From the NCBI GenBank assembly GCA_947460825.1, contig CANHHA010000004.1, forward strand, positions 1 through 64,000: a stretch of DNA of 64,000 bases, read 5' to 3'. Source of the DNA: Flavobacteriales bacterium (GTDB lineage: Bacteria; Bacteroidota; Bacteroidia; Flavobacteriales_D; Crocinitomicaceae). Below are positions 23,414 to 24,391 of the stretch, one piece after another. Position 1 is the stretch's first letter. Every line of letters starts with the position of its first letter. Made by a program: the position numbers and the translations under genes. Below the pieces are notes generated by a model. It did no database searches and was not told the DNA's origin. It was given only the letters and a program-made list of their open reading frames with translations.

Positions 23414-23421
23414 TATATTCG
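23414..23421 (+). promoter_or_regulatory. -7 box (TATATTCG) of the tRNA-Ala locus
   Basis: A TAnnTTCG-type box. Predicted start near 23426, only about 6 nt before the first 51-bp tRNA-like unit, as expected for a tRNA leader. The array therefore seems to lie between the original promoter and the tRNA. Confidence 0.45.
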
Positions 23422-23431
23422 CACTCACAAT

Positions 23432-23584
23432 GGGGATGTAGCTTTCCGCAGTCGCGGAACTAGAGCGAGTGATTAAAAATATGGGGATGTAGCTTTCCGC
23501 AGTCGCGGAACTAGAGCGAGTGATTAAAAATATGGGGATGTAGCTTTCCGCAGTCGCGGAACTAGAGCGAGTGATTAAAAATAT
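23432..23584 (+). repeat. three identical 51-bp tandem units mimicking the 5' half of tRNA-Ala
   Basis: Units start at 23432, 23483 and 23534, and the true tRNA starts exactly one period later at 23585. Each unit begins with the same 12 bases as the tRNA (GGGGATGTAGCT), covering the acceptor 5' strand and D-stem. A hairpin, TTCCGC-AGTC-GCGGAA, then replaces the D-loop. The tRNA sequence CTAGAGCG (D-stem 3' strand) follows, and the unit ends in a 15-base AT-rich spacer before the anticodon stem would begin. The AT-rich end also precedes the real tRNA. The three copies are identical, which suggests recent amplification or active homogenisation. Confidence 0.85.
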
Positions 23585-23658
23585 GGGGATGTAGCTCAGT
23601 TGGCTAGAGCGCTTGACTGGCAGTCAAGAGGTCGTCGGTTCGAGCCCGATCTTCTCCA
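23585..23658 (+). tRNA. tRNA-Ala (anticodon GGC)
   Basis: A 74-nt cloverleaf can be drawn. Acceptor GGGGATG pairs with CTTCTCC, with the alanine identity pair G3-U70; D-stem GCTC/GAGC; anticodon stem CTTGA/TCAAG around loop CTGGCAG, giving anticodon GGC for GCC/GCU; T-stem GTCGG/CCGAT around TTCGAGC; discriminator A. CCA is not encoded (ACA follows). Acceptor position 6-67 is a T-T mismatch, which weakens an otherwise standard stem. A strong terminator follows 9 nt later. The gene is flanked on both sides by partial copies of itself. Confidence 0.95.
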
Positions 23659-23667
23659 CAAATAAAG

Positions 23668-23690
23668 AAGCCCCTTTTGGGGCTTTTTCT
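23668..23690 (+). terminator. terminator of tRNA-Ala
   Basis: Perfect stem AAGCCCC/GGGGCTT with loop TTTT, then a T-run. It is repeated twice more downstream with copies of the tRNA 3' end. Confidence 0.9.
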
Positions 23691-23702
23691 ATTTTTAAAA
23701 CC

Positions 23703-23790
23703 ATCGGGCGAGCACTTAGCGAAGCGATTTCACGACCAAAGGGAGTAGCTTATGCCGAACGAAGTTGAGGTAAGCCCGATCTTCTCCACA
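23703..23790 (+). repeat. downstream module 1: inverted arm plus copy of the tRNA-Ala 3' end
   Basis: ATCGGGC at 23703-23709 is the inverted partner of GCCCGAT at 23774-23780. The stretch 23773-23790 (AGCCCGATCTTCTCCACA) is identical to the tRNA 3' end at 23643-23660. The T-arm loop is thus replaced by a long hairpin while the acceptor 3' strand and discriminator are kept. The interior contains GCGAAGCGATTTCACGACC and GCCGAACGAAGTTGAGG, motifs also found in modules 2 or 3. Confidence 0.8.
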
Positions 23791-23797
23791 ATTAAAG

Positions 23798-23820
23798 AAG
23801 CCCCTTTTGGGGCTTTTTCT
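23798..23820 (+). terminator. terminator copy 2
   Basis: Same AAGCCCC-TTTT-GGGGCTT stem and T-run as the tRNA terminator, placed after the first copied tRNA end. Confidence 0.8.
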
Positions 23821-23832
23821 ATTTTTAAAACC

Positions 23833-23886
23833 ATCGGGCGAGAGGTTTATGCCGAACGAAGTTGAGGTAAGCCCGATCTTCTCCAC
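23833..23886 (+). repeat. downstream module 2: second copy of the tRNA-Ala 3' end
   Basis: Inverted arms ATCGGGC (23833-23839) and GCCCGAT (23871-23877) enclose a shorter interior than module 1. The tail AGCCCGATCTTCTCCAC at 23870-23886 again copies the tRNA end. It lacks the GCGAAGCGATTTCACGACC part. Confidence 0.8.
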
Positions 23887-23894
23887 GTATAAAG

Positions 23895-23916
23895 AAGCCC
23901 CGCTTGGGGCTTTTTC
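23895..23916 (+). terminator. terminator copy 3
   Basis: Stem AAGCCCC/GGGGCTT with loop changed to GCTT, then a T-run. Confidence 0.75.
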
Positions 23917-23930
23917 TATTTTTAAAACCA

Positions 23931-23998: not shown

Positions 23999-24058
23999 CA
24001 TATATTGTGTCCACAATAACTCTAATGAAATTTATTATCTTTATCCAAAATAATGATC

Positions 24059-24391
24059 ATGAAAAAACTTTGCTTAATCCTAGGGCTTTTGGTTTCTTTA
24101 AATGCTTTTACCCAGACCGTTTACTCCGTAGATTCTAAATATGATGCAGACGTTAAGGTGTATGTTGCTTCTTCTAAGTATGATGCGGATTTGGTAGTCT
24201 ATAAATGTTCATCGAAATATGACGCGACCGACAACAAGGGCTTGTGGTTCTTTGCCTCTTCAAAATATGATGCTAAAAAGAAGATTTATTTCTGCGATAG
24301 CAAATATGATGCAGACTTAATTATCTACTTTACAGACAGCAAGTACGATGCGCAATGGAGAACAAGCAGTAAAAAAAGTTTGATGTATTAA
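24059..24391 (+). CDS. secreted SKYDA-repeat protein (DUF6150-like)
   Basis: A roughly 110-residue exported protein. A signal peptide (MKKLCLILGLLVSLNAFTQ) precedes six repeats, each built on SKYDA with about 13-16 residues per unit and an aromatic-rich strand between (for example DVKVYVA, DLVVYKC, KKIYFCD, DLIIYFT). This alternating pattern suggests a small repeat-built beta structure such as a solenoid. It matches the DUF6150 type of short Bacteroidota proteins, whose function is unknown. An ATG two codons upstream (24053) is also possible; 24059 gives the normal signal peptide. It is the first gene after the tRNA-like array and stands 43 bp before the transpeptidase run. Confidence 0.75.
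   Translation: MKKLCLILGLLVSLNAFTQTVYSVDSKYDADVKVYVASSKYDADLVVYKCSSKYDATDNKGLWFFASSKYDAKKKIYFCDSKYDADLIIYFTDSKYDAQWRTSSKKSLMY

Follow-up and report, generated by a model that had tools for sequence, protein, structure and literature searches.

Palindrome-tagged tRNA ends in a Flavobacteriales genome and their association with small GIY-YIG nuclease genes

In the 64,000-nucleotide stretch of Flavobacteriales DNA analysed here (the window), an intact tRNA-Ala(GGC) gene is directly abutted by three identical 51-bp units in tandem (positions 23432-23584; three copies in the draft assembly), each of which copies the 5′ end of the tRNA and carries a palindrome in place of its D-loop. We consider it probable that these units are displaced, palindrome-tagged tRNA-Ala 5′ ends from a family of tRNA-invading GIY-YIG elements, and that they form an old, ORF-less and tandemly amplified member of that family, whose cutting, mobility and route to an array we infer from its products. 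The locus contains the following features.

23414..23421, + strand: promoter-like box TATATTCG (sequence; the same box lies directly upstream of the tRNA at the empty site of genome G043, L020)
23432..23482, + strand: unit 1, displaced tRNA-Ala 5′ end with a hairpin replacing the D-loop (sequence, tandem-repeat call)
23444..23459, + strand: palindrome of unit 1, TTCCGC-AGTC-GCGGAA (sequence; pairing across relatives)
23483..23533, + strand: unit 2, identical to unit 1 (sequence, tandem-repeat call)
23534..23584, + strand: unit 3, identical to unit 1 (sequence, tandem-repeat call)
23495-23510 and 23546-23561, + strand: the same palindrome in units 2 and 3 (sequence)
23585..23659, + strand: intact tRNA-Ala(GGC) (ARAGORN, RF00005)
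23665..23691, + strand: terminator-like hairpin of tRNA-Ala (sequence)
23703..23789, + strand: 3′-end copy 1, with an ATCGGGC arm, a 64-nt insert and GCCCGATCTTCTCCAC (tRNA identity from the T-loop onward, 23773-23789)
23796..23821, + strand: terminator copy 1 (sequence)
23833..23886, + strand: 3′-end copy 2, with AGCCCGATCTTCTCCAC at 23870-23886 (97-bp repeat, sequence comparison)
23891..23917, + strand: terminator copy 2 (sequence)

Each unit is composed of tRNA nucleotides 1-12, the perfect hairpin TTCCGC-AGTC-GCGGAA where the D-loop would stand, CTAGAGCG (tRNA nucleotides 20-27) and a 15-nt AT-rich spacer. A tandem-repeat call with a period of 51 and 100% match spans 23430-23596, and ARAGORN, which reports this tRNA-Ala GGC as the sole tRNA of the window, places its start at 23585, exactly one 51-bp period past the last unit. 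This bears out what an earlier note had read from the letters, namely three tRNA-Ala 5′-end units with a hairpin for a D-loop, in register with the gene. The units end before the anticodon stem, and ARAGORN finds no complete cloverleaf in them. The palindrome pattern TCCGCN{2,6}GCGGA occurs four times in the window, three of them within the array, compared to 0.13 expected. The promoter-like TATATTCG, which we take to be a promoter box of the Bacteroidota -7 type, ends 10 nt upstream of unit 1, where the same note had seen it, and its position suggests that the units are probably transcribed and form a pre-tRNA leader. The 5′ units are real, but they are only half of the picture, as two copies of the tRNA-Ala 3′ end (AGCCCGATCTTCTCCAC at 23773-23789 and 23870-23886), spaced by 97 bp and each followed by a terminator copy, had been missed in that note together with the genome-wide pattern. 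Tandem 3′-end copies downstream of the gene, the hallmark of the tyrT/rtT type of repeat, are present at the window's tRNA-Ala. Because they sit past a terminator, these 3′ copies are probably untranscribed. Reading of the 51-bp units revealed no GIY-YIG ORF within the array, and the array itself is therefore not counted as a free-standing GIY-YIG homing element. Just downstream of the tRNA-Ala locus, positions 24053-24391 encode a small SKYDA-repeat protein identified as DUF6150 (PF19647, E 6e-40), and the start of a similar DUF6150-type gene also adjoins the tRNA in some relatives (L007, L027).

The search of relatives that the earlier note had proposed returned units in at least 13 of the 86 genus genomes; a strict pattern, which would miss more degenerate units, accounts for 12, and G044 was added by reading. 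These 13 genomes carry 1-3 diverged copies, all upstream of tRNA-Ala(GGC). Among genome contigs, 47 records contain the strict pattern, 12 of them by a tRNA (11 tRNA-Ala and one tRNA-Thr, L059); for the other 35, ARAGORN finds none in the 300 bp upstream and the 600 bp downstream. The units have two types of hairpin, CATCCGCC-NN-GGCGGAGG and TTTCCGC-NNNN-GCGGAAC; the hairpin of G007 is intermediate between them. Over 16 distinct units the helix is paired in 97.3% of cells: five of the seven pairs are invariant, one is CG in 11, UA in four and UG in one, and another is CG in 12, AU in one and unpaired in three. The covariation score exceeds all 500 of 500 shuffles, and two pairs have changed on both sides, a number that 102 of 500 shuffles reach. 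Occupied and empty alleles of the tRNA-Ala array, as distinct from a GIY-bearing allele, can be compared directly, with two units in G007 and none in the same leader of G043. When unit presence is mapped on a tree of the arginase-like protein encoded next door (usable sequence from 21 of 33 loci, 13 with units and eight without), it needs four changes, two of which are forced by strongly supported branches, and G043 nests within the carrier clade with modest support. Units persist in clades in which identity of the neighbour protein to that of the window's genome is down to 55-62%. The changes on the tree and the position of G043 indicate that the array is probably old and has undergone losses and changes in copy number. 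Given that there is no ORF in the array, and no GIY ORF beside the units at the genus tRNA-Ala loci read, descent from a full element is what we infer for it.

Displaced ends are found well beyond tRNA-Ala. We examined the flanks of all 35 tRNA genes (RF00005) of the window's genome, G000, and found copies of the gene's own end at 11: Ala, Asn, initiator Met, two other Met(CAT), Arg-CCT, Arg-TCG, Ser-GCT, Leu-TAA, Leu-GAG and Val-GAC, of which Val-GAC has the weakest (score 11, tying the best control end for its flank). A 5′ match at Ser-GGA has no hairpin and probably arose by chance, so that we count 11 tRNAs and not the 12 given by score; it is still included in the 26 tRNAs and 56 breakpoint rows below. 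In six genomes with 185 tRNAs, 26 tRNAs have a 5′ copy upstream and 20 have a 3′ copy downstream at a score of at least 10, and either copy is present at 12/35 tRNAs in G000, 8/26 in G007, 1/35 in G017, 4/31 in G489, 3/30 in G062 and 9/28 in G517. Drawn from the matches listed and the places examined, with repeated tRNAs merged, these 185 stand against all RF00005 matches as 35/35, 26/32, 35/38, 31/35, 30/34 and 28/41, respectively. At a score of at least 9.5, wrong-side copies of either end were found at 0 of the 185 tRNAs in the six genomes, and ends of other tRNAs, used as a control, reach this score in 0-3.3% of comparisons.

The copies also break at defined places. On the 5′ side, 49 of 56 copies end by nucleotide 22, within the D-arm, and seven at 23-43; these rows are partly orthologous, include a doubtful match at L356 and come from a 16-nt query that excludes breaks before about nucleotide 10, so the outer limit is the informative one. 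On the 3′ side, 29 of 35 copies, again partly orthologous, end 13-21 nt from the 3′ end, in the T-loop, with three earlier and three later. A hairpin with a stem of at least 5 stands at the break in 46/56 of the 5′ copies and 16/35 of the 3′ copies, compared to 46/280 random upstream positions; by this measure a perfect hairpin is absent from the break in 19 of 35 3′ copies, the window's own included. Several loci depart from the common form. Initiator tRNA-Met (L133, G000:C8) has two 5′ copies with a period of about 87 bp that include the anticodon arm without the CAT anticodon, and at another tRNA-Met (L147, G000:C5) a 5′ copy and, after it, a near reverse complement of that copy make up a unit that may fold as one long hairpin. 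An upstream tRNA-Phe copy in G517 (L267) has palindromes in both D-loop and T-loop. Behind a tRNA-Asn (L108/L209, G489:C7) lie four 30-bp tandem units of T-loop and TCCGCC..GGCGGA hairpin, an array that the end-copy score missed. In the enterobacterial outgroup Kosakonia (G532; 48 tRNAs, 20 regions) we found five 3′ copies and three wrong-side matches, and 5′ copies at 0 of the 48 tRNAs. The 3′ copies are therefore not special to this group and can arise otherwise. Those at tRNA-Lys and tRNA-Arg (L385, L386, L401) lie downstream, are broken near the T-loop and bring to mind the tyrT repeats of E. coli.

The palindromes themselves are dispersed. The TCCGC..GCGGA-type pattern is found in 28 places in the window's genome, three of which are the array, compared to five for a control pattern, and different tRNAs of this genome carry different hairpins at the same place. 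The description of the D-loop as engineered, which the earlier note had offered, is thus misleading. Around small GIY-YIG ORFs (47 loci) the mean number of GC-rich palindromes per 1.2 kb is 1.36, compared to 0.13 around large ones (15 loci). One small GIY-YIG ORF (L283, G000:C1:206034-206817) sits within a group of five TCCGC..GCGGA palindromes, a long way from the nearest listed tRNA. A separate candidate, a single mimic with one hairpin distributed across Bacteroidota, was rejected, with matches in 18 of 395 genomes of the phylum and no 5′ tRNA mimic among the 23 loci listed; one of the 23 is the 3′-side array of tRNA-Asn at L108.

Relatives often have a small GIY-YIG ORF (PF01541) placed between the intact tRNA and its displaced end. 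Among the matches listed, best-scoring first, a tRNA lies within 1.5 kb at 26 of 69 small loci (4/19 in the six genomes, 11/25 in the genus, 11/25 in the order) and a displaced end at 22 of 69 (3/19, 11/25 and 8/25, respectively); two of the 69 (L288 and L294) are ORFs at one place, and 43 have no tRNA in the DNA examined around them. For the large class of GIY-YIG ORFs (200 aa or more, with UvrC included), the matches listed have a tRNA in 0/16 cases and a displaced end in 0/16. Ten of the 21 small ORFs of G517, one of the 21 being under the family cut-off, have a listed tRNA (37 of 41 listed) no further than 500 bp away, in all ten cases on the same strand, compared to 0.69 expected. The corresponding count is one of three in G000, where the ORF is positioned past the 3′ copy and not between, and one of six in G062. 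We also assembled 43 small ORFs that have a tRNA on the same strand no more than 450 bp away, a set rebuilt by profile that was partly chosen for tRNA adjacency and includes two pieces of one ORF at L224; 24 lie between a displaced end and the tRNA, 13 have a copy elsewhere at the locus and six have none. Numbers of end copies and of small GIY ORFs do not scale across genomes. In a tblastn comparison of one GIY ORF with phages, all 11 records were partial and below 60% identity. A further small GIY-YIG ORF (L298, G062:C1:3596052-3596261) lies about 150 bp downstream of tmRNA, a position suggesting that tmRNA may also be a target; by eye there is no plain end copy there.

Individual loci display the full form and its relation to the window. 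At loci picked because earlier searches had put ORF and tRNA together, the tRNA-Ala of G079 has the order 5′ copy, hairpin, GIY ORF, tRNA, which is the full form upstream, and those of G069, G070 and G063 have hairpin-tagged 5′ copies with the ORF downstream of the tRNA. The G063 copy reads GGGGCATTAGCT-hairpin-CTAGAGCG, the same anatomy as the window's units. In eight genomes of the genus, tRNA-Phe is followed by a GIY ORF and then a 3′ copy with a T-loop palindrome, with a terminator-like hairpin after seven of the eight copies and a tandem cassette at L315. Among the T-loop palindromes (TCCGCCGCGGCGGA, TTCGCCGCGGCGAA and TGCGCCGCGGCGCA) the differences come as paired changes. Of the several origins entertained in the earlier note, repeated insertion into tRNA 5′ ends gains support from the palindrome-tagged ends, the GIY-YIG ORF between end and tRNA in relatives and the empty site of G043; nothing seen here speaks for the RNase P trap or the tRNA-repair reservoir that it also listed.

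The nucleases sort in part by the tRNA that they adjoin. On the tree of 43 ORFs, isotypes cluster as a whole (14 changes; shuffled mean 20.5, 0/200 as low), unevenly, in that Arg-TCT, Asp and Leu-CAA do not cluster alone and near-copies help Phe. The clearest groups other than Phe are Leu (GAG, CAA and TAA, from three families, with one further Leu-CAA ORF outside the group), Asn (three genomes, two families) and Arg-CCT (two genomes of one genus), and the tRNA-Met ORF of the window's genome groups with the tRNA-Met ORF of G079 and one Asp ORF (97/97). Separate nuclease lineages for 5′ and 3′ insertion were also considered and rejected, as the two sides need eight changes, compared to shuffled means of 8.5 and 8.6, and do not form separate clades on a tree that included one spurious reading frame (L279_Sergga_3q) and tandem near-copies.

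A precedent for such nucleases is found in phages. The portions of PMC13096335 available to us report that SegB of phage T6, a free-standing GIY-YIG nuclease, cuts inside tRNA genes; that the motif RAWTSGAAC is common to 23/83 of its sites, aiding cutting without being strictly required; and that SegB lies near tRNAs in phages and is required for tandem amplification of tRNA-Tyr plus segB. A review of T4, in the excerpts at hand, names the tRNA intergenic region as the SegB target and covers trans and collaborative homing (PMC2988022). By our own reading, the reverse complement of the motif, GTTCSAWTY, corresponds to the T-loop consensus. Because SegB cuts tRNA genes, its motif matches the T-loop and 3′ copies break there, we propose a mechanism of arm cutting. 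In its full form, such an element has a GIY-YIG ORF of about 80-110 aa between a displaced end and the tRNA; the copy lies upstream when the break is in the D-arm and downstream when it is in the T-loop, and the anticodon arm is a less frequent break site. The nuclease would cut a conserved arm of a preferred tRNA, and repair would then copy the cassette in and duplicate the neighbouring end of the tRNA, in many cases along with the leader or terminator, so that one intact gene is kept; the duplicated product is what the genomes contain. The palindrome would mark the broken loop of the displaced end and perhaps prevent recutting. The tRNA-Ala cassette would either have lost its ORF or never have had one and moved in trans, and the size of the array, which differs between genomes, may have risen and fallen by unequal recombination.

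Other processes could produce parts of this pattern. Replication slippage or template switching at tRNA stem-loops, in which a nascent strand would stall at the first arm it encounters (the D-arm from the 5′ side, the T-arm from the 3′ side), take up one of the dispersed palindromes and then resume synthesis, with the GIY-YIG genes as passengers or exploiting the same fragile sites, would account for the side and arm specificity, the use of palindromes found in 28 places, ORF-less copies such as the window's array and the 3′ copies of Kosakonia. We nevertheless regard it as unlikely, as it leaves unexplained the nuclease ORFs between copy and tRNA (24/43), the same-strand bias (10/10 in G517) and the partial sorting of nuclease lineages by isotype. 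The attachment sites of large tRNA-integrating elements with tyrosine integrases do leave partial tRNA copies behind, according to the sections of PMC9897764 that were accessible, and remnants whose bodies were lost might look similar; this is a very improbable source here, given the spacing of 51-97 bp in the window and of about 300-600 bp between copy and tRNA in full cassettes, the GIY-YIG nature of the intervening ORF, and displaced 5′ ends that are as common as 3′ ends. An artefact of a metagenome-assembled draft of 73 contigs with 51-bp repeats can hardly be credited, since the same anatomy, with 1-3 diverged units, recurs in the 13 separately assembled genus genomes.

The earlier note had also raised an RNA regulator, and the units could be a functional leader RNA that competes for the tRNA 3′ strand or steers RNase P and so tunes tRNA-Ala maturation. 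Its conserved hairpin, 97.3% paired with a few compensatory changes, is in keeping with such a role, as are the persistence of the unit in deep clades and a drop in acceptor-stem probability from 0.78 to 0.26 when three units are folded in silico. Folding results were otherwise mixed: the acceptor-stem value is higher with the real than with a scrambled hairpin in seven of 13 genomes and lower in six, and with the native D-loop put into the units, 10 of the 13 genomes give a value below that of the real hairpin, two a value above it and one a tie. Moreover, the covariation depends on few events, only 13/86 genus genomes carry units, G043 lacks them within the carrier clade, and the 3′ copies past the terminator are probably untranscribed. 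As the explanation of the array, a leader function thus strikes us as quite improbable.

Tandem 3′-end copies downstream of a tRNA are known from the tyrT-type repeats of E. coli (rtT RNA), which the window's two copies resemble; the Kosakonia loci have similar 3′ copies, with 5′ copies at 0/48 tRNAs. REP/BIME palindromes are moved by RAYT transposases and are likewise short and dispersed, whereas the associated enzyme here is a GIY-YIG protein. Tyrosine-integrase islands and phages with attL/attR, as the accessible sections of PMC9897764 describe them, also occupy a tRNA gene and leave one complete and one partial copy, whereas the cassettes described here measure about 50-600 bp, copy both 5′ and 3′ ends and have a palindrome at the break. 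The closest likeness is to free-standing GIY-YIG homing endonucleases such as SegB of T4 and T6, with a small ORF outside introns and beside tRNA genes (PMC13096335 and PMC2988022, as far as the extracts go); SegB likewise cuts in tRNA genes at a motif that in our reading matches the T-loop and is needed for amplification of the tRNA segment. Unlike SegB, the present cassettes are carried by bacterial chromosomes. An ORF of about 80-110 aa, whose product would be the cutting enzyme, stands between the displaced end and the intact gene; the broken loop often has a palindrome, some arrays are tandem and have no ORF, and the lineages sort by isotype in part. Among the matches listed from the open-access literature, none describes GIY-YIG cassettes with displaced tRNA ends in bacteria, which is no proof of absence, and the part of a GIY-YIG superfamily study available to us (PMC1564403) contains nothing on them. 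We tentatively entertain, at somewhat less than even confidence, that these are a separate class of mobile element, in which isotype-preferring GIY-YIG cassettes cut the D-, anticodon or T-loop of a tRNA, rebuild an intact tRNA by end duplication, close off the displaced loop by means of a palindrome and move cassettes without an ORF in trans; the window's array would then be such a satellite, possibly co-opted as a structured pre-tRNA leader.

The genome-wide pattern is best explained, in our view, by GIY-YIG cassettes that invade tRNA genes, together with derivatives that have no ORF; these would be a variant of free-standing homing elements and have a reasonable chance of forming a separate class. 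On this reading, palindrome-tagged tRNA fragments gain an origin that can be tested, the GIY-YIG nucleases of bacterial chromosomes are connected with SegB, the phage enzyme that cuts tRNA genes, and a number of nucleases become candidates for tRNA specificity. Large mobile DNA is well known to dock at tRNA genes; in the present case these genes appear to house elements that are barely more than one small gene, or even less, while the tRNA is kept working.
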